Virus record (IMG/VR): IMGVR_UViG_3300042384_001501 | Coordinates: 20,405 to 84,404 of that record | DNA length: 64,000 bases | Strand: one strand, 5' to 3' | Source of the DNA: a virus | In this document: positions 6,327-62,817 of the stretch, piece by piece | Layout of the letters: every line of letters starts with the position of its first letter | Numbering within the stretch: position 1 is the first letter of the stretch | Position numbers and translations under genes: made by a program | Notes under the pieces: generated by a model | What the model was told of the DNA's origin: nothing | Databases searched by the model: none | What the model saw: the letters and a program-made list of their open reading frames with translations, nothing else

Positions 6327-6761
6327 ATGAAAGCATATTTTTTAAACATATCTGAAGAAGAAAGAAAACAAATCACTGAAAGACATATTGGTCTATACGA
6401 TGGTTACAGAACATTACAACCTCAAGGTAATATGACCCCTTTAACTGTTGAGGATTTAGCCGGTGATAAAAAAGGTGTAACTGTTTCAAATGAGGGAGAA
6501 GTTATGGAATACAGAAACAAGGATATAAATAAAAAAACTAAACAAGTTTGTGAATCTTGTGGTGGGTTATATGAAGGTAAAATGTGTGAACAATGTTCGA
6601 CTATGAAAGAGGCTGAAGAATGTAACGAATGTGGTGATAGTAATAAAGAATATACTATGGAAGAATTAGAGGAAAACGTTAAAGTTAAATCTAAAACTAA
6701 TTTAATTTCTGAAGAAATTAATAAATCAAAAGATTGGTTTAATCGATTAAAAAAATATTGA
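6327..6761 (+). CDS. Putative virion protein with zinc ribbon
   Basis: 144 aa. The N-terminus MKAYFLNISEEERKQITERH carries the ITE-type tag. The middle has CxxC pairs: CESCGGLYEGKMCEQC, then CNECG, consistent with one zinc ribbon. The C-terminus is acidic then basic. No enzyme motif. The next gene starts 1 nt downstream, so the two are probably coupled. A packaged small zinc protein is inferred from the tag. Confidence 0.55.
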   Translation: MKAYFLNISEEERKQITERHIGLYDGYRTLQPQGNMTPLTVEDLAGDKKGVTVSNEGEVMEYRNKDINKKTKQVCESCGGLYEGKMCEQCSTMKEAEECNECGDSNKEYTMEELEENVKVKSKTNLISEEINKSKDWFNRLKKY

Positions 6762-7648: not shown

Positions 7649-7945
7649 ATGTTGTTTGACTTTGAAACATACATAAACTTATTAAAAAGTTTTGGTGAGG
7701 AAAAACTGACTGAACAAGAATCAACTCCCCCTCCTTCAGGCGGTGCATCAGGAGGAGGTTCTACACCTCCGGCTGCATACCCAACAGTTACTAAATGGGA
7801 GAGTGGTCTAACAAGAGGTAAGGCAAATCAAATTGGTAATACTAAATGGGAGAGTGGTCTAACAAGAGGTAAGGCAAATCCAGTTAATAACAAAGAAAAA
7901 TGGACAACAGGAATTAAACGAGGAAAAGCAAATACGTTATTATGA
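7649..7945 (+). CDS. Small repeat protein with packaging-type N-terminus
   Basis: 98 aa. Begins MLFDFETYINLLKSFGEEKLTEQ, with LTE followed by Gln as in other tagged proteins, then a Pro/Gly/Ser linker and three copies of a 'KWESGLTRGKAN' unit (the third is diverged: KWTTGIKRGKAN). The repeats are basic and could bind DNA or capsid. Its stop overlaps the start of 7942 by 4 nt. Function unknown. Confidence 0.55.
   Translation: MLFDFETYINLLKSFGEEKLTEQESTPPPSGGASGGGSTPPAAYPTVTKWESGLTRGKANQIGNTKWESGLTRGKANPVNNKEKWTTGIKRGKANTLL
7790..7880 (+). repeat. Direct repeat inside gene 7649, 40-bp units
   Basis: Two identical 40-bp copies (7790-7829 and 7841-7880), starting ACTAAATGGGAGAGTGGTCT, with 11 bp between them. 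A diverged third unit follows at about 7898-7934. Identity at DNA level between the first two points to a recent duplication. Confidence 0.85.
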
Positions 7946-9510
7946 AAAATACAGACTTAAAAAAAATTGTTAGAAAAGTTTTATTAGAAGCGGTGGACAC
8001 TTCATTGGTAAATAGAATAATTAAAAAATTAGATAGTTCTAGTTCTCAGTATGGTTGGACTCTTGGGGGAGGGACTGATGAGGATGCGTACGTTAGTGCG
8101 ATACAAGAAATACCAAATTTTGAAACCGCGAAGGCAATCAACGACAAATTTAATTTAAGAGAATCAGTAGATGACGAATTTAATTTTGATAAAGATGATG
8201 ATTGGGAGTATGTTAGTCAAATTTTTGACCACATGGAAAGTATTGGGGTAAAAGTGATAAATCCAACTAATCAGGATTCTTTTGATTTTGATTTTTCAAA
8301 AAATAGGTCCACAATAGGTGGAGGTGATTCCTCTGACCAAGGAGGGGGACAAAAAACACCTGACAAAGAACAAGAGGTAGTTATTTCAAAAGGAAAATGT
8401 AAAGATGCACCATCTCTTACTAGTATATGTTCAGGTTCGGCTTATTTAAAGAGTTGTATGAAAGGTATTAAAGGTTCTAAAGACGACGCAATATCTAAAG
8501 TACAAGAATTTTTAATAAGTAAAGGTTTTAAAAAAGTTTCAAAAACAGGGGAGGTAGATGCAATTTATGGTCCTTTAACTAAAGAAATGGTTAAACAATA
8601 TCAAACATCTGTTAATATAAAGGCCGATGGAATTGCCGGACCTCAAACTGTTTCAACTATGGGTATTTGTAAAGTCACTAATAATCAACAAGGTGGTACA
8701 TTACCGGGACCATCACTACCAGGACCGTCACTACCAGGCCCTGACGGTGGTATACCTACAAAACCTGTTGACGACCCACTTGATGTTAAGGAAACCATAT
8801 GTAGACCTGCAGATAAACAAGTTATCACAGCTTATAATTCAATAGTTGATAATATAAAATCTGAAGAACCTAATTTTTTGAGGAGAGAGTGTCGATTAGT
8901 AATTAATTATCAAATGGAACAAAAAGAACATTGTGATAATTTAGAAGAAGTAATATGTTTTTGTGGAACTAAAGCCAGTTCAGGTGACGACGGGTATTCT
9001 TATATGGGAGAAAGAAAACAGTATTTAAAAAATTATGTTAAGACTTACTGTAAATCTGAATTTGTAAAAGATGATAATAAACCAATCACTGTAGATAAAA
9101 ATAGACCAATAATTCCCGGATGTCAAACACCTGGAAGTGTCATTGCAATTCTTCAACAGGAAGATGATAAATTAAGTAAAGAAGATTGTAAAATATTATT
9201 TAATGAGGCGGTTAATTGGTATAACTCATGGAAAAAATGTGAAAGAGGGAAACACTCTCCAAATCCTGCGTACAAAGACAAATGTTTTTCTTGTCTAAAT
9301 AGATATAATTTCAATTGGAAAGATTTAGGTAGTGGGGAAAATAAAGTTATGAAGATGTATAATTTTAATAAAAGAGAGATTAATAAAAAACAAAGAAGAG
9401 AACTTACAAGAATGGAATCAATTGAATCTTTAAATACCGCTCTTTTGTACATGAATTATGACATGAATAAAACTTTAACTGAAAATAAAAATATAATTTT
9501 AAAAAAATGA
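7942..9510 (+). CDS. Putative virion protein with peptidoglycan-binding domain
   Basis: 522 aa. The N-terminus MKNTDLKKIVRKVLLEAVDT has LLE followed by Ala, the recurrent tag. Around residues 165-235 is a PG_binding_1-like domain (VQEFLISKGFKK, DAIYGPLTKEMVKQYQ, KADGIAGPQTV). A Pro/Gly repeat linker (LPGPSLPGPSLPGP) follows, then a Cys-rich C-terminal half with about a dozen cysteines, probably disulfide-bonded. A peptidoglycan-binding, periplasm-acting ejected protein is inferred. Overlaps both neighbours by 4 nt. Confidence 0.65.
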   Translation: MKNTDLKKIVRKVLLEAVDTSLVNRIIKKLDSSSSQYGWTLGGGTDEDAYVSAIQEIPNFETAKAINDKFNLRESVDDEFNFDKDDDWEYVSQIFDHMESIGVKVINPTNQDSFDFDFSKNRSTIGGGDSSDQGGGQKTPDKEQEVVISKGKCKDAPSLTSICSGSAYLKSCMKGIKGSKDDAISKVQEFLISKGFKKVSKTGEVDAIYGPLTKEMVKQYQTSVNIKADGIAGPQTVSTMGICKVTNNQQGGTLPGPSLPGPSLPGPDGGIPTKPVDDPLDVKETICRPADKQVITAYNSIVDNIKSEEPNFLRRECRLVINYQMEQKEHCDNLEEVICFCGTKASSGDDGYSYMGERKQYLKNYVKTYCKSEFVKDDNKPITVDKNRPIIPGCQTPGSVIAILQQEDDKLSKEDCKILFNEAVNWYNSWKKCERGKHSPNPAYKDKCFSCLNRYNFNWKDLGSGENKVMKMYNFNKREINKKQRRELTRMESIESLNTALLYMNYDMNKTLTENKNIILKK

Positions 9511-11611: not shown

Positions 11612-11686
11612 TGGTACCCCCGTCTGGACTCGAACCAGAAATAACTGCTTAGAAGGCAGTGGGTATATCCCTTTACCTACAGGGGC
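11612..11686 (-). tRNA. tRNA-Arg (anticodon UCU)
   Basis: The 75-nt minus-strand sequence folds as a cloverleaf. The acceptor GCCCCTG pairs with CGGGGGT (two G-U pairs). The anticodon stem ACTGC/GCAGT encloses loop CTTCTAA, giving anticodon TCT. The T arm is TCTGG/CCAGA with loop TTCGAGT. The discriminator is A and CCA is encoded. It reads AGA, the main Arg codon in these genes. It lies 39 nt after the stop of the small gene at 11726, so it may be cut from the PspC-unit transcript. Confidence 0.93.
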
Positions 11687-12336: not shown

Positions 12337-13569
12337 ATGAAATTCAACCAAGTTACAAATGCGGGTGAGAAAAAAATTACCAGAGGATATGGTATGAAAA
12401 TGCACCCTATTCATAAAAGAATGAAAATGCACCATGGAATTGACATTCCAGTATCGACAGGTCATGACATTTATTCAATTGCGGATGGTATAATTATCGA
12501 TAGTGAAATTAGAAGCGACGCTTGTGGAGGTACTATAAAAGTTTCTCACGGAGTTGTAAATGGTAAAAAATTATACACTAGATTTTGTCACTGTAGTAAA
12601 CTTTTAAAGAAAAAAGGTGACATTGTCAAACAAGGTGATGTTATCGCAAAATCAGGTGGAGGTAAAGGTGACCCAGGACGAGGTGGGTCCACGGGTCCAC
12701 ATATTCATTTTGAAGTTTACGAAAATGGAAGTACTGTTGACCCAATGCCTTATTATAAAAATTCTGTAGGTGGGGAACAAACTGAGTTACCGAGTGAAGT
12801 TGATTTGGACAAATATAAAGATGAGTTAGAAAAGGATGGTGATTTAGATATGGACACAGGTGATACAAAGAAAACATCAAGACAAGTTGCTAAAGATTTA
12901 ATAAAAAAATTATTTGGAATAGATAAAAATTCGTCTATTGAAAATGAGGTTGTAAATGAAATATTTAGAGTTAGAGAAATTATAGAAGAACTAATTCCGA
13001 CTTTTAAAATTGACACAGGTAGTAATAATGATAATAATGACGGTAAAACTTGCGGACCGTATGACCCTAATTCACTACCCGTTAAACCATGTACCTCAAG
13101 AGTTGCAAATGGTAACGTGATTACATATACAGGGTCAGATGTTATTGCTCAAGACACTGGTACTATCACGGGTGTCACTAAAGGAAGTTATACTCAGGCA
13201 ATAAAAATTGGTAATACCGCTTATTATTGGAATGGTAGCTTAGATAAACAAATGGGTGTTAATATAAATAAGGGTGATAAATTAGGTATGACAGGGTCAG
13301 ATAAAAAATTAATTACCCAACCTTATAGTTCACAAACTCCAAATAAGACTCAAACTTCTACTCCTTCTAAAAATGATGGAAAGACAGTAAATCCTTTAGC
13401 TCAAACCTCAAGTGACTCTAGAAATCAGGCTAAAAATTACGTTAAAAATATTATTAACACATTAACAGGTACCCAAACACAAGCTCCAACTACAAAAAAG
13501 GAATCAATTGAAAAATTAAAACCTTTAATTGAAAACGAATTAAAAAGTTTTAAAAAATTTATAAAATGA
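12337..13569 (+). CDS. M23-family peptidoglycan endopeptidase
   Basis: 410 aa. The N-terminal M23 (LytM-like) domain spans residues about 10-130: RGYGMKMHPIHKRMKMHHGID with the HxxxD zinc motif (His32, Asp36), then GPHIHFEVY with His122 and His124. M23 enzymes cut peptide cross-links in peptidoglycan. A second, lipoyl/M23-like beta region without obvious ligands lies at about 235-325. Helical segments (VVNEIFRVREIIEELIP and the C-terminal SIEKLKPLIENELKSF) resemble those in other virion proteins here. It has no signal peptide, which suits a virion-carried or lysis enzyme. It overlaps the next gene by 4 nt. Confidence 0.8.
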   Translation: MKFNQVTNAGEKKITRGYGMKMHPIHKRMKMHHGIDIPVSTGHDIYSIADGIIIDSEIRSDACGGTIKVSHGVVNGKKLYTRFCHCSKLLKKKGDIVKQGDVIAKSGGGKGDPGRGGSTGPHIHFEVYENGSTVDPMPYYKNSVGGEQTELPSEVDLDKYKDELEKDGDLDMDTGDTKKTSRQVAKDLIKKLFGIDKNSSIENEVVNEIFRVREIIEELIPTFKIDTGSNNDNNDGKTCGPYDPNSLPVKPCTSRVANGNVITYTGSDVIAQDTGTITGVTKGSYTQAIKIGNTAYYWNGSLDKQMGVNINKGDKLGMTGSDKKLITQPYSSQTPNKTQTSTPSKNDGKTVNPLAQTSSDSRNQAKNYVKNIINTLTGTQTQAPTTKKESIEKLKPLIENELKSFKKFIK

Positions 13570-14309
13570 CAGGTAATTACAAAGTTAAAGCCCCGATAGG
13601 AGGTGTGGGAATTAGACAAAAGGATACTTCAGATAAAGGAATTTTATTTGAGGTTACGGATGGTAATGATTATTCAGTGTACCCATGTTTACCTGGTATT
13701 GTGTCAAAAATTGACGATGAGGAAGTAACAATTAAACATAAAGATTATGTTGGTAAAGACTTTATTTCAATATATGAGATTGACGGTAAAATTAAAGTAA
13801 AAGAAAAACAAGAAGTTACTCAGTCAACTGTAATTGGTAAAACCGATGAAGAAGTAATTTTTAAAGTTAAAGATGGTGGTTCATATACTAGCGCTAAAGA
13901 TTTTATAGGTAAAGAATTTGGTAAGACAAAAGAAACTACATTATCATCAAAACAAAAAGCTAGATGTATTGCTAGAAGTATTGTTGGATTACCAGCTAAA
14001 GCCTTTGGTGTTGACGAATACGACCCATGTGCCGAGTTTTACGGAGAAAAATCTAAGGAACCATCTGAACCAGTTGATACTGAAATAAAAAAAGATGGGA
14101 AAAATAATAATGTGGACAATAATGGGGGGAAAAAATCTAAAGATATTGACATTGACCCAAATAAATCATTACCTGACTCGACAGGTGGAGAAGAGGAAGA
14201 AGATGAACCAAGTTTACTGGGCACTGGAGTTAAAATGATTGGTGCAGTTACGGAGTCTAAAAAATTAAATGAAGAGATATTAAGGATAAAAGAATTATTA
14301 AGACTATAG
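13566..14309 (+). CDS. Degenerate M23-like protein, probable partner of the M23 peptidase
   Basis: 247 aa. Residues 1-110 follow a lipoyl/M23-like beta pattern (KAPIGGVGIRQ, GILFEVTDGNDYSVYPCLPGIVSKIDDEEVTIKH) but lack the HxxxD and HxH zinc ligands, so it should be inactive as a peptidase. An acidic linker leads to a C-terminal helix (KLNEEILRIKELLRL). It is translationally coupled to the M23 gene. A structural or targeting partner is inferred. Confidence 0.55.
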   Translation: MTGNYKVKAPIGGVGIRQKDTSDKGILFEVTDGNDYSVYPCLPGIVSKIDDEEVTIKHKDYVGKDFISIYEIDGKIKVKEKQEVTQSTVIGKTDEEVIFKVKDGGSYTSAKDFIGKEFGKTKETTLSSKQKARCIARSIVGLPAKAFGVDEYDPCAEFYGEKSKEPSEPVDTEIKKDGKNNNVDNNGGKKSKDIDIDPNKSLPDSTGGEEEEDEPSLLGTGVKMIGAVTESKKLNEEILRIKELLRL

Positions 14310-14744: not shown

Positions 14745-15137
14745 TGGTGGAGATGCCGGGGGTCGAACCCGGGTCCAAATAAGTAAGACATAAAACACTA
14801 CACGTTTAGGTCATTGTTTTTCTAAACAATCCGAAACTTCACAATTCCCTTATTTTATAGTGGTTCGGTTTACTGAGAACTAATCCTCCACTTTGTTTCT
14901 TTTTGGGTAGAAACCACACCACAACTACGACTTCTGTTGCAAGGTTGTATGTCTGCCGACCCCTAGTAGGTTAATTTTAAATTAAGCTACAGATACTTCT
15001 TCAGTACGGATTAAACCGATTGTAGAAAGTTTGTTGATAACGTTGCCGTTTATAATTTGAATCAGTTTAACGGAGTTAACTCAGCTCCGACGTGCGTTTT
15101 ATGGCGTATCATACCTGTCAAAGCCAAAAACATCCCC
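14745..15137 (-). ncRNA. ssrA: tmRNA (SsrA)
   Basis: On the minus strand the 393-nt RNA starts GGGGATGTTTTTGGCTTTGA, a typical tmRNA 5' end, and ends with the T arm CCGGG-TTCGACC-CCCGG, then CATCTCC, discriminator A and CCA. The acceptor 5' GGGGATG pairs with CATCTCC and has a G-U at the third pair, the alanine identity element. The resume codon is read as GGC at RNA position 91 (15045-15047), close to the E. coli position, and the tag frame ends in TAA at 14982-14984. tmRNA with SmpB rescues stalled ribosomes and tags the product for proteolysis. It is the only gene content in 14745-15137. No clear promoter is visible upstream. Confidence 0.93.
14982..15047 (-). other. tmRNA tag-peptide reading frame, 21 codons plus stop
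   Basis: From GGC at 15047 the frame encodes a 21-residue tag beginning GNVINKLSTIG and ending RTEEVSVA, then TAA. Tags are more often about 10-15 residues ending in (L/M/V)AA. The placement of GGC at nt 91 and the GTAGCTTAA ending support this frame over a shorter alternative starting GCA in the next frame. Confidence 0.65.
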
Positions 15138-21948: not shown

Positions 21949-22740
21949 ATGAGCTTAGTCAACAAAAAACAAGTATTAACAAAAATGGGATTCAGTCCAA
22001 AAACATTGTCTCTTATGACTGAGTCTGAAATATCAAAATTATTCAAGACTTTTTTAATTGAAACAAAAAAAGAAAATAAAGAAGCAGTTCAGGTAACTAA
22101 AATTGTGTTGGATAAAAATAATCCTACGGACGTTAAAACTGCGAATTTTTGTTTACAAAATCCTTCAGACTCAAAATGTAAAAATGTTGAGATGAAAGAG
22201 GGTAAAAAAACAAAGAAAAAAAATCCATGGGCTATTTGTACTTCTGTAATGGGTGCTGAATTCGGTACGAAAGAAAGAAGTGACTGGACAAAAAAACAAA
22301 TGGATAAATATGAAAAATGTGTGGTTGGTGTAAAAAAATCAATTAAAGAAGGAAAAAATCCTATAGAAGTTTTGTTAGAAGATAAATTTAGAGGTATTAT
22401 TGTAGAAAATTTAAGACCAAAAATAACAAAATCTGATATAATGAAAATGATTTTTGAAAACGTAGAAATGGCCGACCCTGCGGTTAAACCAAAAACAAAA
22501 CCTGGAGTTAAACCCGATACAGATTATGACCCATTTATATCACCTGACCCCGATGACCAACCTGAGGCTAATACACCTGAACCAAAAACAAAACCAAAAC
22601 CTGGTGTAAAACCTGATGTTGATTATGACCCATTTATTTCACCCGACCCAGATGACCAACCTGAGGCAGGTGCTAGAGGTTTAGAGAGTTTTATGTCGGC
22701 AGTTAAAAAAATGGGAATGTTAAAAAAAGGTAAGAGATGA
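21949..22740 (+). CDS. Putative packaged virion protein with proline-rich repeats
   Basis: 263 aa. An in-frame TTG at 21931 lies inside the previous gene, so the ATG at 21949 is used: MSLVNKKQVLTKMGFSPKTL, then KLFKTFLIETKK with LIE followed by Thr as the tag. The central part has a compact Cys-containing domain (NPWAICTSVMGAEFG, KYEKCVVGVKKSI) and ends with two 'KPGVKP(D)xDYDPFISPDPDD' repeats. It overlaps the next start by 4 nt. Function unknown. Confidence 0.6.
   Translation: MSLVNKKQVLTKMGFSPKTLSLMTESEISKLFKTFLIETKKENKEAVQVTKIVLDKNNPTDVKTANFCLQNPSDSKCKNVEMKEGKKTKKKNPWAICTSVMGAEFGTKERSDWTKKQMDKYEKCVVGVKKSIKEGKNPIEVLLEDKFRGIIVENLRPKITKSDIMKMIFENVEMADPAVKPKTKPGVKPDTDYDPFISPDPDDQPEANTPEPKTKPKPGVKPDVDYDPFISPDPDDQPEAGARGLESFMSAVKKMGMLKKGKR
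22501..22667 (+). repeat. Two-copy repeat encoding PGVKPDxDYDPFISPDPDDQPEA
   Basis: Two copies of about 67 bp (22501-22567 and 22600-22666), differing mainly at third codon positions, inside gene 21949. Synonymous differences suggest the protein repeat is kept by selection. Confidence 0.75.
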
Positions 22741-24272
22741 ACAACAAAAAAATTTTAATAGAACGAGTTAAAAAACTACTCAATGAGGCACCACCTATGA
22801 GTTTTGGTCCTGAATTAGGAGGGGCTAGACCAAGTAAAGATTTACAATCAAAGATTGAAGGTGGTAAATTACCATTAAGTCAATTTGGATTAACTCAAGC
22901 TCAAGTAGATTTTTTTACATCACAAGCATTTAAAGAATCTGTTTTGAATTTAGAAAGATTAATGGACAGAAGTTCAGGAGTTATTCCTCGACTAACAAGA
23001 GGTAATCAAAATTTAAAGAAGGACGCTCAAACCGCCTTTAGAGAATTATACTCTTTAGTCAGTGACCTATTAGGTGAGTTAATCCAACTACAAGGAAGAA
23101 ATCAAGAAGAATTAGAACAAATCGCCAATGAGTCAGTTGAAAAGGCGATGGGTATTGACAGAAAGTTTTTTGACAATAAGTTAACACTAGATGGTAAGTT
23201 TACTCAGGGAGCATTACGTCAACTACAAGGAATGAAAGCAAAAGTTCAAAAAATTTCTGATGAAGAAATTATGAAAAAATTTGCAAGTGTTGATGAAGAG
23301 AAAAAAGAAAAACTTGAACAAATGAGACAGGAGTTTGAAAGTATGGGTGTCGAGTTTGATGAGGAGCAAGCTAAAAAGGCGATAGATTCTACTTTTAAAA
23401 TGTCCCCTGAAGCGATTCAGGCGGCTAAAAAATCATTCTCAGATGAAGTTTCTAGAAGAATGATTATTAACTTATTCAGACGTGGTATGTCACTTTATTA
23501 TGTAAACGCTTATGAAATATGTAAAGATAAGATAGAGAGTTTACCTGGTGGTGATAGAATTATCGAATTATCTAACGTGTTACAACCGATAATGTTACAT
23601 ATGTATTGGTTATTCCCTGATATTGGTTCTATGGGAACGACAGGAGGAGGACAAATCGGTCAGATTGAGGTTGTACCACCTAAGAGCGGAAACCAAGGTC
23701 AAAATGACGATGAAGAAGAGGATGAAGAAGAGGATGAAACACCAAAACCAACACAGCAACAATCATCATCACAACAACCGACAGGACCATTTATTATTAG
23801 AGCAAGGGCAATGACTTTACCATTATTAGTTCATGAATTAGTAAAAGGTGTTGCAATGTTCTTCACGTCAGCAGGTGGTGAAAAAACTGAACAAGGTAGA
23901 TTGGCAAAACAACAAGCAAGTTCATTAGAAATTGAAGCATACGATTTAGTTTATGGTGAAAAATTCTTTATGGAATTTTACAAAGTTTTTAATAAATTAG
24001 TACCCGATAAACAAGAACAAAGAGATTTAACACCATTTGTACTTAAATTTTTATCTGAAGAAAAATATGAAGTTTTGGTTGAATTAGCTAAATCATTATT
24101 CACTTTAGGATTAACTGACCAAAATTTCGCTGAAAATTTTATAACACAGTTAGTTGAAAAATCTAAAAAATTAGTAAATAAAATGCAACAAAACCCATCG
24201 TATGTTGAAAAGAAAAAATACGGTGAAGAACAGTTTGACGATGAAGATTTTCTATCAGGATTAGGATTCTAA
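22737..24272 (+). CDS. Putative head-packaged structural protein
   Basis: 511 aa. It begins MNNKKILIERVKKLLNEAPP: a basic amphipathic helix then LLNE followed by Ala, almost identical in form to the LINE|A site in the major capsid protein. The body is helical and Gln/Lys-rich with an acidic, Gln/Pro linker at about 318-345. It sits directly upstream of the terminase gene and ends at a terminator. No T4 counterpart recognised; T4 gp16 would be much smaller. Confidence 0.6.
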   Translation: MNNKKILIERVKKLLNEAPPMSFGPELGGARPSKDLQSKIEGGKLPLSQFGLTQAQVDFFTSQAFKESVLNLERLMDRSSGVIPRLTRGNQNLKKDAQTAFRELYSLVSDLLGELIQLQGRNQEELEQIANESVEKAMGIDRKFFDNKLTLDGKFTQGALRQLQGMKAKVQKISDEEIMKKFASVDEEKKEKLEQMRQEFESMGVEFDEEQAKKAIDSTFKMSPEAIQAAKKSFSDEVSRRMIINLFRRGMSLYYVNAYEICKDKIESLPGGDRIIELSNVLQPIMLHMYWLFPDIGSMGTTGGGQIGQIEVVPPKSGNQGQNDDEEEDEEEDETPKPTQQQSSSQQPTGPFIIRARAMTLPLLVHELVKGVAMFFTSAGGEKTEQGRLAKQQASSLEIEAYDLVYGEKFFMEFYKVFNKLVPDKQEQRDLTPFVLKFLSEEKYEVLVELAKSLFTLGLTDQNFAENFITQLVEKSKKLVNKMQQNPSYVEKKKYGEEQFDDEDFLSGLGF

Positions 24273-26095: not shown

Positions 26096-27658
26096 ATGGG
26101 AGTAGAAGAATTACCAAATAACGGAAATAAATTTACAGGTTCAAGAATGATTGTACCTGGTGTTGGTTTAAATATTTATAAAGTTCAAAAAAACGATAAA
26201 TTTGCAGTCAAAAGAAACCAATATGCGAATTCAATAAACGCATCCCCAACACCAACTCCTTCGTTTACCCCAACAAACACTCCTACACCAACTATTACTC
26301 CAACAAACACAATGACCCCATCTGTTACTCCAACTCTAACGCCAACACCTTCAAGTACTCCCCCACTCCCTCCACAAACATTTGTTTTAAGTGGTAATTC
26401 AACAACTACTGTTGCTGGGACATTTTCAGTATCCTCAAGTGGTGGGTATATTGATTATGGTGATGGGGCGACAACTTCATTAACATTAGGTACAAATGTA
26501 ATTAATCATACATATTCGTCACCATATACAGGAGTAATAACTATAAACTATTTTGGTAATATCACTTCATTAAATATTAATAATTGTGTACCTGATAATA
26601 GTACAGTGATAAATGTTAGTACATCTGAAATTGTTAATCTTACAAATATTACACAGTTAATATTATCTAGTGGAAGATTAACGGGACAATTTAGTGATTT
26701 TACACCATTAACATTATTGACTAATTTAAATATTAAAAATGATTATACTGCAAGTGTAATTTCAGATATACCGCAAAATATTACACAGTTGATTTTAGGG
26801 GCTCAAGGGTATACCACAATTAGTGGTAACATAAGTGCTTTGTCAGGTAATAATTTAACATTCCTTGGAATCTATGGTACAAATACCGTAAGTGGTAACA
26901 TATCAACTTTACAATCAACACTAAGTACTATTGCTATTTGGGGTTCTAATACAGTATCAGGAAATACATCTTCATTTAATTTCCCATCTTTAGATAATAT
27001 AAATATACGTGGAAATAATACAATTGGTGGGGATGTTGTTAACCTACCTTCATCATTAACCAATCTTTATATTACAGGTAGTAATACATTATTTGGAAAT
27101 ATATCCGATATCCCGATATTAATTAACAATTTGACTATAGATTCTTCCACTGGTGGAAATTTAACAGGTAATTTATCTGATTTACAACGAACTGGGTTTT
27201 ATCTTATAACTTTGTCAGCACCTAATCATACATTTGGTCTTGATATTGACACGATGCCTGTTGTTTCAGGAACATCATTTTATGCGAGAGTTAATGGAGA
27301 CTTAACTGGAGACATATCAAATTTATTTGATTCAGGTTTAAGTTTCCCATTTTGTTCAATAACTATACAAAACGATAGTGGTACATCTTCAAGTATTTCA
27401 TATACCCCAAGTACCTATCCATGGGGTTCTGTTAACCTTAAAACCTTTACAATTAATAGAAATGGAGGGTTATCAAGCACAATTGTAAATAATTTATTGA
27501 TAGATATCGATTCGTTTGGAGGTGGAATTACTTGGGGAACAAATCCTGCGTGTGCTGGAGGTAGTAGTATAAACCTAAAAGGTACCAGAACTTCAGCTTC
27601 TGACGCAGCGGTTACGAGTTTAAATGGTAAAGGAGTTACAGTTACAATTACCCCTTAA
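26096..27658 (+). CDS. Surface-exposed LRR-like protein with Pro-Thr stalk
   Basis: 520 aa. Residues 1-45 form an attachment-like region, then about 50 residues of PTPT-type linker (TPTPSFTPTNTPTPTITP). A PKD-like beta segment follows (GGYIDYGDGATTSLTLGT) and then about ten LRR-like repeats of the form 'LTNLxIxGxNTxxGNIS', like BspA or bacterial surface LRRs. Its place between terminase and portal suggests a head decoration or fibre protein rather than an enzyme. It starts 9 nt after the terminase stop without its own late box. Confidence 0.6.
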   Translation: MGVEELPNNGNKFTGSRMIVPGVGLNIYKVQKNDKFAVKRNQYANSINASPTPTPSFTPTNTPTPTITPTNTMTPSVTPTLTPTPSSTPPLPPQTFVLSGNSTTTVAGTFSVSSSGGYIDYGDGATTSLTLGTNVINHTYSSPYTGVITINYFGNITSLNINNCVPDNSTVINVSTSEIVNLTNITQLILSSGRLTGQFSDFTPLTLLTNLNIKNDYTASVISDIPQNITQLILGAQGYTTISGNISALSGNNLTFLGIYGTNTVSGNISTLQSTLSTIAIWGSNTVSGNTSSFNFPSLDNINIRGNNTIGGDVVNLPSSLTNLYITGSNTLFGNISDIPILINNLTIDSSTGGNLTGNLSDLQRTGFYLITLSAPNHTFGLDIDTMPVVSGTSFYARVNGDLTGDISNLFDSGLSFPFCSITIQNDSGTSSSISYTPSTYPWGSVNLKTFTINRNGGLSSTIVNNLLIDIDSFGGGITWGTNPACAGGSSINLKGTRTSASDAAVTSLNGKGVTVTITP

Positions 27659-30948: not shown

Positions 30949-31668
30949 ATGCAAGATTTGAAAATTTTAGGTCCAAAAGATTCAGGTAAAGGAATACTGA
31001 TAGAAATGGATGCGGGATATATCTCACCGACAGAGTCTCGTAACTTGGCGGTAATACAAGAAAGTAAATCGGCTTTAGACTATTCAAAACCTTTTGAGTT
31101 CTATGCTGTTTTACAAAAATATAATACACCAAACAGAAATGGTAGAATTTATCCTGAAAAAATATTAAAAAGAGAAGTTGAAAATTATAAAAAAAATTAT
31201 ATATCAAAAGGAACCGCTCTTTCGGAATTAAACCATCCTGAATCATCATTAATTGATTTAGATAGAGTTTCTCACATAATCACTGAAATGTGGTGGGATG
31301 GTCATATATTACTTGGTAAATTAAAACTTTTAACATCACCTGGGTTTCACGAAAGAGGAATTGTATCAACAAAAGGAGACCAAGCCGCAAATCTTTTAAG
31401 ACAAGGTGTTACATTAGGGATATCATCAAGAGGAGTCGGTTCGTTAGTTAAAAAGGGGGAACAAAATGAAGTACAAGAAGATTTTGAACTAATTTGTTTT
31501 GACTTAGTATCATCACCATCTACTCCAGGAGCATATCTTTTCCAAGATATGGCTGATAAACACAAGTACGAAGAAAATTTGCAAGAAGAACAATTACAAA
31601 AAGCTGAAAGGTCAACAACAAAATCACTTGATTTAATGAAAAAACTTAACGATTATTTATCAAAATAA
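30949..31668 (+). CDS. Prohead protease (gp21-like)
   Basis: 239 aa, similar to T4 gp21 (212 aa). Serine protease landmarks: EFYAVLQKYNTPNRNGRIYP, the catalytic His in ALSELNHPES (His96), and GVTLGISSRGVGS with the nucleophile Ser at 159/160. It degrades scaffold and trims head proteins after (L/I)xE-type sites. Its likely substrates here are the capsid protein (LINE|A at 60/61) and the many tagged proteins described in the findings. Confidence 0.93.
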   Translation: MQDLKILGPKDSGKGILIEMDAGYISPTESRNLAVIQESKSALDYSKPFEFYAVLQKYNTPNRNGRIYPEKILKREVENYKKNYISKGTALSELNHPESSLIDLDRVSHIITEMWWDGHILLGKLKLLTSPGFHERGIVSTKGDQAANLLRQGVTLGISSRGVGSLVKKGEQNEVQEDFELICFDLVSSPSTPGAYLFQDMADKHKYEENLQEEQLQKAERSTTKSLDLMKKLNDYLSK

Positions 31669-31938: not shown

Positions 31939-31981
31939 TATTTTATTTACATTATGTGGTGAATTTTTCTAAAGTACTGAA

Positions 31982-31988
31982 TATTTAT
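31982..31988 (+). promoter_or_regulatory. TATTTAT late box
   Basis: Lies 6 nt before the ATG at 31995 and inside the longer frame that opens at 31956, so it decides the start of the scaffold gene. Confidence 0.65.
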
Positions 31989-31994
31989 CAAAAA

Positions 31995-33611
31995 ATGCAA
32001 AAAATGGCAGAAAATAAAAACTTAGTTGAAGAAGCGGTAATCCAATTAAAAAATTTGGAAGAAGCTATCAATGAAAACGCAAAAGAAATACTTGAGTCAA
32101 CAATGAAGCAAGAAATTAGCGAGCTTGTAAAGGAGTCTTTAAAAGAGGCTGAAGAAGAAGAGGAAACTGAAGATTTTGAAGAAGAATCTGATGAATCGGA
32201 AGAAGAAGAATCTGATGAATTTGAAATGGAAGACGAAGAAGGTTCTGAAGAAGAATTTGATGAGTTTGAAATGGATGATGAAGAAGAGTCTGACGAAGAA
32301 GGTTTTGAAGATGAAATGGGACAGGATGATGAAGTAATTGATTTTACACAAATGCCTGATTCTGATGAAACTCAAGATTTGTTATTAACAGTTTTCAAAA
32401 AAATGAAACCAGAAGATGAAGTCGAAATCCAAAAAGACGGGGAGTATGCACATTTGAAAGACGGTGACGATGAGTACCTTATTCCAATGAACGAATCTCG
32501 TGAGGATGATGACGATGACAATGACGACGAAGAATTTGAGTCAGAGTTAGAAGAAACTATCTATGAAATTTCTATGGACGACGAAACAGGTGAAATGGAA
32601 GAACAATGGCAAGGTTTGGCCGCTGATATGGCAATTGCCGCAGCACCAGTTATTGCTGACAAAATGTTTGGAGACGATGAAGAAGAAGAATTAGAAGAAA
32701 CTATTTACGAACTTCACATGGATGGTGAAGATGGTGAAGATGATGATGAACTTCCTTCTCCTCCAAAAGAAGAAAGACCTGGTGGGATGTTTTATGAAAG
32801 AGACATGGATGTTGAGTATGAAGAAGATGAAGATGATGATATGGAAGACGGATACGAAGAATTTCCAATGGATGATTTAGAAGAAATGGATTATCAATCT
32901 GAAGAATATACAGAAGAAATGATGCATGAGACTACTAAACCAAAAGTTGGTAAGGGTGGTAAAATCGGAAAACCTAAATTTTCATACAAGAAAACTACTG
33001 GTGGTTTTAAAGAAAAAATGACAGCCGCTAATCCTACAAAAGGTACAGGTAAACCAAAGTTTGAATACAAAGAATCAACTAAAAAAATGAAGAAAGGTGA
33101 ATTTAAAGAAGCTTCTCGTACATTAGGTTCAGGTTCAAAATTTAGAAAAGGTGGTCTACCGAAACCAGCCGCTCATTCGGCATTCAATATTAATATTGAA
33201 GAACACTATTCTTTGATGGAAGAAGTAGAAATGTTGAGAGCTAAAAATGAAGAGTACAGAAAAGCTTTGAATATTTTCAGAGACAAACTTAACGAAGTTG
33301 CTGTATTCAATTCAAATTTAGCGTACACTACAAGATTATTTACTGAACACACAACATCAAAGCAAGAAAAAATAAATGTTTTAAGAAGATTTGATTCTGT
33401 AGAAACACTTAAAGAATCTAAAAATCTATATAAAACTATTAAGGACGAACTTTCATCAACTACTAAAGGAAAAATCACTGAGTCAATCGAAAAAGTAATG
33501 GACAACGAACCAGTAATTACAGGTTCTGCTCAAAACTTAATTGAATCTAAGACTTACGAAAATCCTCAGTTTATGAGAATGAAGGACTTAATGACAAAAA
33601 TAATAAAATAA
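31995..33611 (+). CDS. Prohead scaffold/core protein (gp22-like)
   Basis: About 538 aa from ATG 31995; ATG 32004 is equally possible, and a GTG frame from 31956 is less likely because it spans the late box. The C-terminal third matches gp22 in style: EEVEMLRAKNEEYRKALNIF, VFNSNLAYTTRLFTEHTTSK, KINVLRRFDSVETLKESKNL. The middle is very acidic, with repeated EETIYE(I/L)xMD and GKPKFxYK units, making it twice the length of T4 gp22. It nucleates the prohead and is removed by gp21. Possible cleavage at SLKEA near the N-terminus. Confidence 0.85.
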   Translation: MQKMAENKNLVEEAVIQLKNLEEAINENAKEILESTMKQEISELVKESLKEAEEEEETEDFEEESDESEEEESDEFEMEDEEGSEEEFDEFEMDDEEESDEEGFEDEMGQDDEVIDFTQMPDSDETQDLLLTVFKKMKPEDEVEIQKDGEYAHLKDGDDEYLIPMNESREDDDDDNDDEEFESELEETIYEISMDDETGEMEEQWQGLAADMAIAAAPVIADKMFGDDEEEELEETIYELHMDGEDGEDDDELPSPPKEERPGGMFYERDMDVEYEEDEDDDMEDGYEEFPMDDLEEMDYQSEEYTEEMMHETTKPKVGKGGKIGKPKFSYKKTTGGFKEKMTAANPTKGTGKPKFEYKESTKKMKKGEFKEASRTLGSGSKFRKGGLPKPAAHSAFNINIEEHYSLMEEVEMLRAKNEEYRKALNIFRDKLNEVAVFNSNLAYTTRLFTEHTTSKQEKINVLRRFDSVETLKESKNLYKTIKDELSSTTKGKITESIEKVMDNEPVITGSAQNLIESKTYENPQFMRMKDLMTKIIK

Positions 33612-33637: not shown

Positions 33638-35431
33638 ATGGGAGCATTATTAGAATCAGGTCTTGTTGGTAACATCGGTCTTAAGCACCTTAAAGTTATC
33701 AAAGAAGATACTATTAACAAATGGGACAAATTAGGGTTCCTTGAAGGTCTTCGTGGCCACCTAAAAGAAAACGTAGCACAATTATATGAGAACCAAGCTT
33801 CTCACTTAATCAACGAAGCTACTTCAGACGGAAATTCAGGTTCATTTGAAACTGTTGTTTTCCCGATTATCAGACGTGTATTCTCTAAATTATTAGCGAA
33901 TGAAATCGTTTCTGTACAAGCGATGAACTTACCAATCGGTAAATTGTTCTTCTTTGTACCAAAAATCCAAGGTTACACTGGTACAACTCAGTTAACTAAT
34001 GATACTACATCTCCATGGGCTCACAGAGCACCTGTAGGAGCACCTGGTAACTATCCTGGTGACCCAAATGCAGGTTATAATGATGCTGCAGCTTTCACTA
34101 AGAATCTTTATGATTTGTATTATGAAGGTAATGAGGCGGCTTTAGACCCACCTGGATTGTATGATTACTCAAAAGGACGTTGGTCAGCGACTACTGCGGC
34201 GACTTTCACTCAAGTATGGACAGGACAAAGATTAGTACAATCAGGTTATCCAAGTACTACTTACAGAAAAGTAATCGTTTCTTTATCTGGTTTCAGTACT
34301 TCAGGTGAAGGTAGATTAGTTGGTCCTGAAGGTAACCAAATGGATACTGAGGATTTCTTAGCAAGTTTACGTTTAGTTTCTTCAGCAAATACACAAAACC
34401 CATTATTGTTCAGAGTTGTTACTCAAGTATACGGTCAAGGTATTGTTAACTACGGTTCACAATCACAAGCTGCTTGGCCAACTCAAGGTAACGGTGGTTA
34501 CTACAATAACATTTGTAGTGCATCTGGTGTTATCTACTTAGAAGTTGATTTAAGTGTACCTTGTTCTGTAACTGATAACAGTTTAGATGGTTATTCAGGT
34601 TCTACATTCGCAGCTGACACAGCCACTGGTTCTATCATTGCGGTTTATAAAATCTATGAAGAACTTGAGTTTGAAGACGCTATCGGTGAAGTTTCTTTTG
34701 AATTAGATTCAGTAACTGTTACTGTAACTGAAAGAAAGTTAAGAGCTCAGTGGTCTCCTGAATTGGCTCAAGACGTTGCGGCATTCCACAACATCGATGC
34801 TGAGGCTGAATTAACAGCTTTATTATCTGAACAAGTTGCGGCTGAAATCGACCGTGAAATCTTACGTGACTTACGTAAAGGTGCAGCTTGGCAATTACGT
34901 TGGGATTACAACGGATGGAAGAGAGGAACTGCAGCTAACCCATTAACTCAGTACACTCAAAAAGACTGGAACCAAACATTGATTACTGCAATCAACCAAT
35001 TGTCAGCACAAATCCACAAGTCAACACTTCGTGGTGGAGCTAACTGGATTGTTGTATCTTCTGAGGTTTCTGCAATCTTCGATGACTTAGAATACTTCCA
35101 CGTATCTAACGCTTCTCCTGAGCAAGACCAATACAACATGGGTATTGAGAGAGTTGGTACTTTAGCTGGTCGTTACCAAGTATACCGTGACCCTTACTTC
35201 CCGCCAAACCAAGTTTTGATTGGACACAAGGGTACTTCATTACTTGACACTGGTTACGTTTACGCACCATATGTACCTCTACAATTAACTCCAACTATGT
35301 ACAATCCATTCAACTTCACACCTATCAAAGGTATCATGACACGTTACGCTAAGAAGATGGTTAACAACCGTTTCTACGGACGTATCACAGTTGACGGTGT
35401 ACGTACATTTGACTTGAGAGAGTTAAGATAA
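33638..35431 (+). CDS. Major capsid protein (gp23-like)
   Basis: 597 aa (T4 gp23 is 521). Typical gp23 N-terminus and body: VFPIIRRVFSKLLANEIVSVQAMNLPIGKLFFF, ELDSVTVTVTERKLRAQWSPELAQD, and the C-terminal YAPYVPLQLTPTMYNPFNFTPIKG with RYAKKMVNNRFYGRI. The prohead cleavage site is SHLINE|ATS (after Glu60), comparable to T4 removal of about 65 residues. Codons end in C far more than in neighbours, as expected of the most expressed gene. No TATTTAT box lies in the 26-bp gap, so it may be transcribed with the scaffold. Confidence 0.96.
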   Translation: MGALLESGLVGNIGLKHLKVIKEDTINKWDKLGFLEGLRGHLKENVAQLYENQASHLINEATSDGNSGSFETVVFPIIRRVFSKLLANEIVSVQAMNLPIGKLFFFVPKIQGYTGTTQLTNDTTSPWAHRAPVGAPGNYPGDPNAGYNDAAAFTKNLYDLYYEGNEAALDPPGLYDYSKGRWSATTAATFTQVWTGQRLVQSGYPSTTYRKVIVSLSGFSTSGEGRLVGPEGNQMDTEDFLASLRLVSSANTQNPLLFRVVTQVYGQGIVNYGSQSQAAWPTQGNGGYYNNICSASGVIYLEVDLSVPCSVTDNSLDGYSGSTFAADTATGSIIAVYKIYEELEFEDAIGEVSFELDSVTVTVTERKLRAQWSPELAQDVAAFHNIDAEAELTALLSEQVAAEIDREILRDLRKGAAWQLRWDYNGWKRGTAANPLTQYTQKDWNQTLITAINQLSAQIHKSTLRGGANWIVVSSEVSAIFDDLEYFHVSNASPEQDQYNMGIERVGTLAGRYQVYRDPYFPPNQVLIGHKGTSLLDTGYVYAPYVPLQLTPTMYNPFNFTPIKGIMTRYAKKMVNNRFYGRITVDGVRTFDLRELR

Positions 35432-35739: not shown

Positions 35740-36503
35740 GATAAACTATTCATTATATTTTCAATCTTAGATGCACTTCCAGAAACTGCACTATTTCTTC
35801 TTGACTGAACCGCAACTTTTTTAAGTTCAGATACTGACGTATTACCTTTTTCCACCTCTTCATTAATTGCGTTTGCAAATTTTTGAAAAAATCCTGAGCC
35901 ATTCCAAGAAGCGTATATAAAGTGGAATAATAACGCGTTACTTTTCATAACAATATTTTTAGCCTCAGGAGATAAGTATTTATCAGCAAGTTTATTAAAA
36001 TGAGGTTCCATTATTTTAACCACCAGGTCTATTAGTTTTTGTTCTAAATTACCACCTCTATAATAACGTTTCCAAACTCTTCTATTTTTATTCCCATCAA
36101 TCAAATTCCAAAATTCAACACCGGCATTGCTTGTATTTAATGTTCCTCCGTGTTTCCTATCAATTCCAAACATAGTTTCACCTGAGTCACCCATTCCTGA
36201 AGATTTATGCCATTGTGGGTTAAAATATCCACCTTCTAATTTATTAATAACTAATTCAGTCATTTTTTTAAAATCTCCTGATATTGTACCAAATGAATTG
36301 TCTGAACCATTATTGGTAGATGTGTCAGATGTATTAGAAGAATCTTTATCATCTTTGTTAATTAATTTACCCCCAATTCTTTTTTTCACCCTATCAAGCA
36401 TTGCTTGTATGAACGAATCACCAACAATATTACTATCATTTTGTTCAGTGATATTATAATTTACAATTTTTTTTAATTGTTCTTCAGTAACTTTAATTTT
36501 CAT
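35736..36503 (-). CDS. Lysozyme-like (GH108-type) protein with packaging-type N-terminus
   Basis: 255 aa. It begins MKIKVTEEQLKKIVNYNITEQ with ITE followed by Gln. After a Ser/Asp/Asn linker, the domain starts MTELVINKLEGGYFNPQWHK (Glu90, the EGGY catalytic motif of GH108-type muramidases), then GETMFGIDRKHGG and a helical body. It would cut the glycan strand of peptidoglycan. It overlaps the upstream M15 gene by 4 nt, forming a wall-degrading pair. Confidence 0.7.
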   Translation of the reverse strand: MKIKVTEEQLKKIVNYNITEQNDSNIVGDSFIQAMLDRVKKRIGGKLINKDDKDSSNTSDTSTNNGSDNSFGTISGDFKKMTELVINKLEGGYFNPQWHKSSGMGDSGETMFGIDRKHGGTLNTSNAGVEFWNLIDGNKNRRVWKRYYRGGNLEQKLIDLVVKIMEPHFNKLADKYLSPEAKNIVMKSNALLFHFIYASWNGSGFFQKFANAINEEVEKGNTSVSELKKVAVQSRRNSAVSGSASKIENIMNSLS

Positions 36504-38083
36504 ATCTTATCTCCAAATTTTTCATAGAAATATTTAAGGATTGCAAAATTCATATGAGCGTACCCTTTAGTACAGAATACGTGTCCTGAATAAGAACCTT
36601 TATCTTTATTTGAACAGTACCATTCTAATCTTTTTCTTGTTTGTCCATAAAATCCAGTAGTTCCCCAATTTTTTGGGTCACAAACCAAATAAGTATTTGG
36701 TCCAAAAGATATTCCTGTTTCGTATGTTGATGGGTCAATTAAACCGACTAATTTTAAACTACTATCTTGAGCATAATTCCATGTTTCTCGTCCACCTTGT
36801 GAAAATCCTGCAATAGATGATACCACTCCACCAAATTTTTCTTTTACGTATTTTTTAACGTTGTTTAAATTATTAAAATGGTGAGTAATTACAATTATTT
36901 TATTATTACTGTAAGGTCTCAAATAAGGTATGTATTTTTCCATTGCGGAACGATTTGCGGTACCCTTTGAGTATCCTGAAGTATGAGCTCCCCCAAAAAA
37001 TACGTGTACTTGATTACCTTTATATGAATCAGATTTAATAATCACATATTCATTATCTCCTGTCACTTCTGAATTAGTTTCTGATGGTTTTGTTTGAACT
37101 TTTTTAGGGTCTTGAAGTCTCTCCAAAGTTTTTTTATCTACTGATGATGATACAGTTAATGATTGGTCTTCTTGAAAAGTTTCTAATGCCTTTTTAGTTT
37201 TAGGACCAAATAAACCATCAACTCCACACTTACCTAAGTCATAGTTCAAACGGTTCAAGATGTTCTGAATTTCGGTAACTGGTGACCCCATATGACCAAT
37301 TCTCATTACAACATCCCCTTTTTTAATTTGTTCTAACGTTGGGGACTCTGAATATGACTTTGTTGGTTGACAACCAGACTTCTTAAATTGTTTTACGGTT
37401 TCTTTTTCAAGTTTAGGGTCTACTTTATCACTTTTATAATAATCATCAATTTTAGAATTCGGTATAACTTCTGTTTTACCCCCACTATTTAAAGACTCTC
37501 CCCCGACATAAAATAAATGCCAAGGTTCTGCTTTACGCAGTACACCATCTCTTAAATAAGATACTTTAAAACCAAATTTTCCACAATTATTTTCAACCCA
37601 TTTTTTAACATCTGAATTCTGATTCCACCAAGACGGTTCAACACTTATTATATCAAATGCCTTTCCTGTATGATGTTGAGAAAATCCGGGTAACGCAGAA
37701 TACTTTTGTCTTTGTGACACACCACCATCCCTTTTTATTTTACCACCAAATGTATCGACTTGTTTGGAATAACTTCTATATGATGAGACCACGGTAGCTT
37801 TAGATGACACCTCAGGAAATTCTTTTTTTAATGATGATAACAATTTTGATATTTGGATTTTTGCCTTTGAAACCTCCCCACCATTGTCTTCATAGTACTG
37901 ACCTTCTTGTTTCATCTCATCATCCACATGTTTATCATTAATTGTAGTATTGTACTTTGATTCAACACTTGATAAAGATGATTTAATATCAGAAGGTAAA
38001 TCTCTATTAACTTTTTCAGTTAATAAACCATATTTTTTTAAAATATCATTTTTTTCAGATTCAGAAATAATTAACTTTCCCAT
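36500..38083 (-). CDS. M15 peptidase / PG-binding / alpha-beta hydrolase fusion
   Basis: 527 aa. The tag MGKLIISESEKNDILKKYGL ends in LLTE followed by Lys (20-24). An M15 (VanY-type) D,D-peptidase domain at about 70-195 has SQHHTGKAFD (135-144) and EPWHL (His189). A PG-binding domain at about 260-315 follows (VTEIQNILNRLNYDLG, DGLFGPKTKKALETFQ). The C-terminal third has AGFSQGG, a serine hydrolase elbow, with GLIDPSTYE and SGHVF/KGYAHMNF for possible Asp and His. Three wall- or lipid-related modules in one polypeptide is unusual. Late box 5 nt upstream. Confidence 0.8.
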   Translation of the reverse strand: MGKLIISESEKNDILKKYGLLTEKVNRDLPSDIKSSLSSVESKYNTTINDKHVDDEMKQEGQYYEDNGGEVSKAKIQISKLLSSLKKEFPEVSSKATVVSSYRSYSKQVDTFGGKIKRDGGVSQRQKYSALPGFSQHHTGKAFDIISVEPSWWNQNSDVKKWVENNCGKFGFKVSYLRDGVLRKAEPWHLFYVGGESLNSGGKTEVIPNSKIDDYYKSDKVDPKLEKETVKQFKKSGCQPTKSYSESPTLEQIKKGDVVMRIGHMGSPVTEIQNILNRLNYDLGKCGVDGLFGPKTKKALETFQEDQSLTVSSSVDKKTLERLQDPKKVQTKPSETNSEVTGDNEYVIIKSDSYKGNQVHVFFGGAHTSGYSKGTANRSAMEKYIPYLRPYSNNKIIVITHHFNNLNNVKKYVKEKFGGVVSSIAGFSQGGRETWNYAQDSSLKLVGLIDPSTYETGISFGPNTYLVCDPKNWGTTGFYGQTRKRLEWYCSNKDKGSYSGHVFCTKGYAHMNFAILKYFYEKFGDKI

Positions 38084-38337: not shown

Positions 38338-39639
38338 ATGAAAGAAACCCATTTAATAAAAAAAATAAGGGAGATAATAAAAGAAACCAACTCAAGTTCA
38401 GCAGCAGGATTTTATAACGTACCAATGAGACCCGGATTAAGATTGTGGAAGAAAAAAGAAATGGGTGCGTTTACTGAAAAACTTAATGGGTACGATAACG
38501 CAGAATTATATGTTGACGCGTTAGATGGAAATATTGACACTAAAAATGCAAAGGAAAAAGAGAGAATCTCAAGAAAAATATCTAAATATTATGATAAACA
38601 CCCAACTCAAAACGATGATGATGGTAATGTTTTAAATGATGTCAATATTAAAGAAGCAACATATAATGATGGAGGTGAATATAGCGCACCATTAAGTTTT
38701 GAGCCAATTAAATGGGATAAACATACTATGGCACCATATGTATATCATTCCACTCATGACCATAATGAAAAAGGTAAATTAGGTAACATTGGTGGTAAAG
38801 TATCATTCAAACATGGATATATGGAAAAACCACACCCAAAAAAAGGTAAGTCAAAAAAAATAATAACACCTAAAGAAAATAAAGATGTAGTTAATGAGGA
38901 TTTAGCAGTTTGGTTTGGTAAAAAAAAGAAACCAAAAGGTAGTAAACAACCTAAAGGTCCTTGGGTTAATATTTGTAAAAAAGTAGATGGTAAACATCCA
39001 CCTTGCGGAAGACCTCAGGCAACTGATAGAGCTTACCCAAAATGTAGAGCTGCGGGCGTTGCTGGGAAAATGTCAGATTCAGAAAAAAGAAACGCGTGTC
39101 AACAAAAAAGAAGAGCAGAAAAAACTCATTCAAAATCAGGTACAGGTAATAAACCTAAAATGGTTTCTCATAAAACAAATGAAAATATGTCAAAAAAAAT
39201 TAAAATTACAGAATCACAATTAAAGAACTTGGTTTATTATCTTAATGAACAAAATACATTACCAATAACTTTATCATGTATAGAACCTGATAACCCAAGT
39301 TCTCCAGGAATACAATTTAAAAATTTAAAATTTGTGAATAAAGGTACACAAACTTTAAATGATAAAGAAGAGACAATTTATGTTTTTGAGAAGACTAGTC
39401 TTGAACCTTATAAACAAGAATCCGTACAACAAAAATTTACAACAGTAAAAATTGAAAACCCTGAGTTGGTTAAAGTTTTAGAACAACGAGGATATAAGAA
39501 CGTATCAAATTTTAGTTTTTTAAAAACCTACCATCTAAATAGAAAGTTTTATTGTGGAGTCTTCTTCACAAAAGATAACGATAATTCAGATAATTTTGCA
39601 AAAACAAATGATATTGTTTCATTAAAACCAACAAAGTAA
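38338..39639 (+). CDS. Modular virion protein with internal second packaging tag
   Basis: 433 aa. The N-terminal tag is IIKE followed by Thr (about 13-17). A central module from about 190 reads NEDLAVWFGKKKKPKGSKQP, then PPCGRPQA, YPKCRAAGVAGKMSDSEKRNACQQKRR; from memory this Cys/Lys-rich domain is common in large phages. At residue 284 (ATG 39187) a complete second tag starts, MSKKIKITESQLKNLVYYLN, with YLNE followed by Gln, and leads into a 125-residue beta-rich domain. The gene looks like a fusion of two tagged proteins that gp21 could split. Function unknown. Confidence 0.65.
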   Translation: MKETHLIKKIREIIKETNSSSAAGFYNVPMRPGLRLWKKKEMGAFTEKLNGYDNAELYVDALDGNIDTKNAKEKERISRKISKYYDKHPTQNDDDGNVLNDVNIKEATYNDGGEYSAPLSFEPIKWDKHTMAPYVYHSTHDHNEKGKLGNIGGKVSFKHGYMEKPHPKKGKSKKIITPKENKDVVNEDLAVWFGKKKKPKGSKQPKGPWVNICKKVDGKHPPCGRPQATDRAYPKCRAAGVAGKMSDSEKRNACQQKRRAEKTHSKSGTGNKPKMVSHKTNENMSKKIKITESQLKNLVYYLNEQNTLPITLSCIEPDNPSSPGIQFKNLKFVNKGTQTLNDKEETIYVFEKTSLEPYKQESVQQKFTTVKIENPELVKVLEQRGYKNVSNFSFLKTYHLNRKFYCGVFFTKDNDNSDNFAKTNDIVSLKPTK

Positions 39640-48999: not shown

Positions 49000-49000
49000 A

Positions 49001-50059: not shown

Positions 50060-50071
50060 ATTTGTTTATTA

Positions 50072-51717: not shown

Positions 51718-51732
51718 ATTTTTAATTTTAAA

Positions 51733-56558: not shown

Positions 56559-56581
56559 TTTATTTGTTTTTTTTATTTTTA

Positions 56582-57160: not shown

Positions 57161-57164
57161 TTTT

Positions 57165-62814: not shown

Positions 62815-62817
62815 TTT

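Follow-up and report, generated by a model that had tools for sequence, protein, structure and literature searches.

Proteins ejected by phages help to decide survival in the first minutes inside the cell, and to our knowledge few of them have been identified except in T4, T7 and the jumbo phages. T7 gp16 is a transglycosylase and an ejected internal head protein, for which we know of no cleaved targeting tag. In T4, gp21 cuts after L/I-X-E and propeptides of 10-19 residues target the internal proteins (IPs) into the core; the C-terminus of Alt is processed too (PMC9026906). The prohead protease of phiKZ/SPN3US (gp175/gp245) removes N-terminal propeptides after Glu from many head proteins (PMC10052503, PMC9026906), those of SPN3US being mostly 111-254 residues long (PMC10052503). 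The principle of cleaved cargo tags is already known from T4.

We analyzed a window of 64,000 nucleotides, bases 20405-84404 of the 84,404-bp IMG/VR virus record IMGVR_UViG_3300042384_001501, in which many proteins begin with short segments ending in Glu. These segments are most probably (probability roughly 0.8) propeptides that target proteins to the prohead and are cut by a gp21-type protease after (I/L/V)xE, freeing the cargo in the head. The observations behind this reading are tags on unrelated protein bodies, conservation up to the P1 Glu, exchange of tags between orthologs, the presence of the protease, and identity with a scaffold peptide in the lineage of phage immuto.

Head genes and relatives of the phage

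The window contains a T4-like head module with terminase, portal, gp21-type protease, scaffold and major capsid protein (MCP) genes, starting at 24338, 27694, 30949, 31956 and 33638. A gp21-type protease was also found in all relatives examined. The MCP has relatives encoded by at least 598 IMG/VR stretches, and the 80 kept share 73-79% identity; the nearest isolate records by MCP, with a match of about 40%, are Flavobacterium phage immuto and Microcystis phage Mel-JY01. The relatives of this phage are very common and aquatic.

The LINE↓A form (the arrow marks a predicted cut) that had been claimed at MCP residues 60/61 was present, and the remaining one of the 44 distinct homologs carries LINE↓S, so that all have Ala or Ser after this sequence form (Table 1). 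In the scaffold, at least eight [ILV]xE sites are nearly invariant, followed mostly by Ser, Ala, Val, Asn, Glu, Leu or Ile. The N-termini of gp21 themselves end in cut-like sites, LxE↓SK-like in the immuto lineage and LIE↓ in the window lineage, and the gp21 C-termini of the immuto lineage, LDSIINDILRA, look by sequence like short cargo tags; self-targeting and autocleavage of the protease are thus possible.

Other features of the window are a long linker of PTPT type in ORF 26096-27658, between terminase and portal, a cluster of sugar-nucleotide and glycosyl-transfer genes at 48193-63865 (-), assigned from reading translations only, a predicted tmRNA gene at 14745-15137 (-) with the tag GNVINKLSTIGLIRTEEVSVA, and a tRNA-Arg gene at 11612-11686.

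Table 1. Predicted tags, cleavage sites and associated head genes. Positions refer to the window unless a locus is named; the arrow marks the predicted cut.
Feature	Position	Strand	Support
T6-type tag MSENILNRIKLLMEYDTSKTLSENELMIE↓Q	1399-1485	+	T6 HMM 52 bits (a seed); also on unrelated G001 and G002 proteins and at the ORF 7942 C-terminus
T2-type tag MKKILSVNPNEKQRILEMHGFTNNSNVINE↓Q	3273-3362	+	T2 HMM 32.5 bits
T3-type tag MSTLILSESQRRLLIIE↓S	4880-4930	-	T3-type tag kept in orthologs G001 34875 and G002 127196
T2-type tag MKAYFLNISEEERKQITE↓R, weak site	6327-6380	+	T2 HMM 31.3 bits
Possible tag MLFDFETYINLLKSFGEEKLTE↓Q, weak	7649-7714	+	LTE↓Q; LGE↓Q in G002 relative
Short tag MKNTDLKKIVRKVLLE↓A, PG-binding-domain protein	7942-7989	+	T1 HMM 14.8 bits; PG_binding_1 6e-12
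C-terminal T6-type tag of ORF 7942	9418-9507	+	T6 HMM 51.8 bits, aa 493-522 of 522 (a seed)
C-terminal tag KLNEEILRIKELLRL of ORF 13566-14309	14262-14306	+	T4-type HMM 16.4 bits, aa 233-247 of 247 (a seed)
Tag MSLVNKKQVL...MTESEISKLFKTFLIE↓T	21949-22062	+	T1 HMM 18.9 bits; NESQI/TESQ forms kept in orthologs
N-terminal tag MNNKKILIERVKKLLNE↓A of ORF 22737-24272	22737-22787	+	Glu17 junction invariant in 9 aligned orthologs
gp21-type (S80) prohead protease	30949-31668	+	phrog_207 head maturation protease, 4e-49
Scaffold (gp22-like), many conserved [ILV]xE sites; C-terminal peptide ENPQFMRMKDLMTKIIK at 33558-33608	31956-33611	+	
MCP propeptide, end LINE↓A	33638-33817	+	Kept in 43/44 distinct homologs
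T3-type tag MKIKVTEEQLKKIVNYNITE↓Q	36444-36503	-	T1/T3 HMM 18.3 bits
T2-type tag MGKLIISESEKNDILKKYGLLTE↓K, VanY and PG-binding protein	38015-38083	-	T2 HMM 30.5 bits; VanY 2e-22
Tag MKETHLIKKIREIIKE↓T, module 1 of ORF 38338-39639	38338-38385	+	P1 Glu in 28/31 distinct junctions of ortholog family
Internal site VVNE↓DLAVWFG, start of module 2 of ORF 38338	38896-38898	+	Separate gene in relatives: MSQLKE↓DLAVWFG, MEQQLNE↓DLAVWFG
Internal T3 tag MSKKIKITESQLKNLVYYLNE↓Q, start of module 3 of ORF 38338	39187-39249	+	Sequence
Second conserved site QMNE119↓GRKK, protein 41329(-)	40973-40975	-	E119 invariant
Short tag MEKLIKKILKE↓E	41297-41329	-	P1 Glu invariant in 13 aligned orthologs; tag type swaps
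T3-type tag MRKLILKESQLKFIIDTFLSE↓G	41775-41837	-	Ortholog G001 74214 with T1 tag ...IINE↓S
phrog_27331 small proteins (KLCARGKAAAKxKFxVYPSAYANxYA), T7-like cyanophage and Pelagibacter phages	L298:2498-2668; L299:3498-3881; L300:2498-2656		

Shared N-terminal segments

The original prediction had listed 13 N-termini and the internal site at 39187 as packaging tags, and all of them translate as claimed, each with a terminal hydrophobic-x-Glu; the weakest cases are 6327 (ITE↓R) and 7649. Proteins whose bodies are not homologous were compared by their N-terminal, internal and C-terminal segments of 30 residues, pairs being counted at a BLOSUM62 score of at least 40. The 84-kb record gave 20 N-N pairs against 0 internal and 1 C-terminal, relative G001 92 against 10 and 9, relative G002 158 against 11 and 18, and immuto 17 against 2 and 3. 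In T4 the same test recovered the MKTYQEFIAE↓A proteins as the known pair with the capsid-targeting sequence (CTS), together with a cluster of N-termini of GIY-YIG-like endonucleases. No comparable N-terminal excess was found at this stringency in cyanophage S-PM2, phiM12, RM378, HTVC008M, Mel-JY01, SPO1, crAss001 or phiKZ. A 54-aa ORF of T4 (NC_000866, 18966, minus strand) has the CTS-like start MKTFKEFIKE↓D and is possibly an unrecognised internal protein.

The tags are therefore real, but they do not form the single family originally claimed. Several types were found: T1 (LTESDLxRIVKRVIxE), T2 (ISExEKxRILxMH...LxE), T3 (ITESQ), a cluster named T4-type (EINRFREIMGLxLxE), T5 (NIxDYKxRFxxLMESxxGDVKPLINE) and T6 (LLMNYDxxKTLTEN). 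At 15 bits or more the T1 HMM matched 30 N-termini, a number that includes seed sequences of the same genomes; none of 4,067 internal segments reached this score. The 86 tagged proteins could be aligned only at MK.....TE..E. Tags also stand at the very C-terminal end of ORFs 7942 and 13566, and within fused proteins. A tblastn search of phage records with the bare 23-aa tag, a very short query, returned nothing.

Many further tagged genes lie in the 20 kb of the record upstream of the window, where the MKKIVRLTESDLxRLVKKVIxE type occurs in five copies, each on a different protein. Counted conservatively, at least 21 tagged proteins are encoded in the 84-kb record and at least 46 in each of two near-complete relatives of about 295 kb, so that the tagged set was borne out while the predicted number of cargo proteins, more than a dozen, was too low.

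Conservation up to the glutamate

IMG/VR was scanned with a DNA pattern for MKK[hydrophobic]2RLTESDL only, that is, for the 12 residues that open one tag, and at least 91 distinct N-termini were found. Residues 13-22, absent from the query, were conserved as (T)RIVKRVIxE. Among the matches listed, Glu22 together with a hydrophobic residue at position 20 (P3), in the form (I/L/V)xE, was present in 85 of 91 (the background frequency of [ILVM]xE is 0.0198 per position), conservation was gone from residue 23 onward, and the 90 bodies belonged to 73 families. The residue after Glu (P1') in these matches was often Gln, Asn or Glu instead of Ala; the MCP sites of immuto-like phages likewise accept Gln and Glu after the cut.

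Junctions in orthologs and multi-site proteins

In the 22737 family the pre-sequences are 7-20 residues long (the shortest being MKRKINE) and otherwise unconserved, and Glu is followed by Ala at 9 of 9 distinct junctions. Some ortholog pre-sequences, such as MKRKINE and MSQLKE, are too short for a docking helix. The AF2 model of ORF 22737 (pLDDT 64) has a low-confidence helix at residues 2-16 followed by a disordered stretch, and its sole structural match was an uncharacterised phage protein; the model of ORF 41329(-) was of poor quality. No homolog of 22737 or 38338 was found in phage records by tblastn.

Three modules are fused in ORF 38338, and an (I/L/V)xE stands before every one of them; in relatives the DLAVWFG module is encoded as a tagged gene of its own. 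Such a layout is expected for a protease-processed polyprotein. On inspection, the three junctions of the 38338 family without Glu seem to be anchoring errors in junction assignment. In the 41329(-) family the tag alternates between a long T1 form, the short NLxxIIKKVLKE and ITESQL, with Glu11 invariant. The second site of this protein, E119↓GRKK, precedes a phrog_27331 domain which is free-standing in Prochlorococcus phage P-SCSP2 and Pelagibacter phages HTVC023P and HTVC106P; the free-standing proteins start with M(A/T)KLCARGKAAAK, six residues past the predicted E119 cut. In P-SCSP2, a T7-like cyanophage, this gene adjoins the scaffold gene.

A scaffold-tail copy in a related lineage

The scaffold of the immuto lineage ends in ...SEVSDAVKRMQKLAGIIK, and the common core of this C-terminus is identical to that of the N-terminal tag MKKQILSEEFRRMQKLAGIITE↓N. 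Across 80 loci this string was found at 44 C-termini, near 7 N-termini and nowhere in 250,000 internal residues; its core RMQKLAGI forms the scaffold C-terminus in 43 loci. A second scan with FRRMQKLAGII, the start codon being left out of the pattern, gave 47 matches, all at N-termini and spanning 29 body families, with Glu two residues past the motif in 35 of 36 distinct sequences. Small tagged proteins are encoded on both sides of gp21 in the portal-to-scaffold interval of immuto, close to the place that gp67 and gp68 have in T4.

In a third lineage, jumbo phage LR756508, a 41-kb region with the capsid genes (151982-193520) encodes more than 20 proteins with MKLTERRLKKIVKEEIDKVLQE-like starts, of the consensus MK(L/I)(T/S)E..LRxI(V/I)(K/R)EE.., and a scaffold-like protein has the C-terminus RMQKLADIS. 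In LR756511, the 41 kb surrounding the capsid gene yielded no comparable tag family at the stringency used. In the window lineage, similarity between the tags and the lineage's own scaffold C-terminus was not above chance. Docking by mimicry of the scaffold tail is directly suggested by these sequences for the immuto lineage and hinted at for LR756508; for the window lineage we put it forward only as a hypothesis.

Tagged and untagged proteins

Few of the 86 tagged proteins were recognised by Pfam, the matches being PG_binding_1 (4), VanY, M23, PPK2, DUF6576 (2) and Phage_L5_gp82; one further protein had a sub-threshold match to phage lysozyme. Cell-wall enzymes had been expected among the listed ORFs, and Pfam backs this for 7942 (PG_binding_1) and 38083(-) (VanY and PG_binding_1) only, 36503(-) having no match. 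By analogy with T7 gp16, the carriage of cell-wall enzymes in the head is plausible. The G002 homolog of the immuto endolysin (69261, minus strand) has an untagged start, unlike the tagged PG-binding proteins, and no tag was found on ssb, RecA, DnaB, NrdA/F, primase, sheath, tube, baseplate, terminase or portal, as identified by homology to immuto.

Among contigs above 100 kb, gp21 was present in 13 of 15 tagged contigs and in 4 of 5 PhoH-bearing controls. Since this is no excess over the PhoH-selected controls, co-occurrence with gp21 was dropped as support.

Proposed route and alternative explanations

By analogy with T4, the short amphipathic tag would dock the cargo into the assembling scaffold core, and the phage gp21-type protease would then cut after (I/L/V)xE, so that the body of the cargo is released within the head and multi-site cargo is split into separate modules. 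The mature cargo would stay with the DNA and presumably be ejected with it. Packaging, cleavage, ejection and function of the tagged proteins are what we infer from the sequences and from described phages. The interpretation as packaging tags has held through two out-of-sample scans, the ortholog junction test and, in a related lineage, the identity of a tag with the C-terminal peptide of the scaffold.

The amphipathic character of the tags, and a P1' preference that is not strong in some of them, would also suit docking helices which stay uncut and belong to another structure or compartment (tail, membrane or transcription complex), with Glu as a helix cap. We regard this as improbable, because (I/L)xE is retained at the border with the body even where the pre-sequence is very short, the sites have the same form as those of MCP and scaffold, one tag is identical to the scaffold tail in the immuto lineage, and tail proteins carry no tag; the T4 precedent also speaks against it. 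Still less probable, in our judgement, is that only some tags direct packaging and the rest are functionless remnants of domain shuffling in expanding gene families. Related bodies do occur among some tagged proteins, for example in the MKIIITESQYK family of G002, and the tagged genes are clustered in a few genome regions, but the diversity of the T1 bodies among the matches listed, the sharp limit of conservation at Glu22 and the swapping of tag types between orthologous bodies argue against it. Nucleotide signals for translation or regulation at conserved 5' ends could explain why tags lie mostly at gene starts; this we consider very unlikely indeed, as synonymous codons vary within T1 tags and identical peptides are also found at C-termini and within proteins.

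Prohead-targeting propeptides thus remain the preferred explanation, and since unrelated proteins carry tags ending at a head-protease site, the head probably carries many proteins into the host besides DNA. With less assurance, we think it fairly probable that a large group of uncultured aquatic T4-like phages (probably of Bacteroidota) load dozens of proteins per head, including cell-wall enzymes and multi-site polyproteins, by means of a few interchangeable tags, of which at least one reproduces the scaffold tail; hundreds of hypothetical proteins would then form a readable catalogue of ejected effectors. The cargo label can be read from sequence, one type being a 22-residue tag with a sharp end. 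If the proposal is true, many hypothetical proteins of abundant uncultured phages become predicted head cargo, scaffold-tail mimicry is suggested as a docking route, and a testable way to load other proteins into phage heads is offered.

Comparison with known systems

In the literature searched we found no account of tagging on such a scale, of an interchangeable tag set, of a scaffold-tail copy or of multi-site cargo. The presence of peptidoglycan-active proteins in the head, inferred here, would be shared with T7 gp16. As in phiKZ and SPN3US, N-terminal propeptides are predicted to end in Glu; however, no shared tag family was detected in phiKZ, and the SPN3US propeptides are far longer. The phiKZ protease is too diverged for a phrog_207 match.

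The closest parallel is the T4 CTS of IPI, IPII, IPIII and Alt, where a short N-terminal propeptide with an (L/I)xE end likewise stands on unrelated proteins in a genome with a gp21-type protease, and where the MCP propeptide has the same kind of end. On the other hand, the tags described here are unrelated in sequence to MKTYQEF(IAE), several types occur in one phage, dozens of genes are tagged as against about four in T4, tags are also internal and C-terminal, and a tag of the immuto lineage reproduces the C-terminal peptide of the scaffold. Since the tags are of other sequence types than MKTYQEFIAE, the system appears to work like the CTS without being a member of it by tag sequence.
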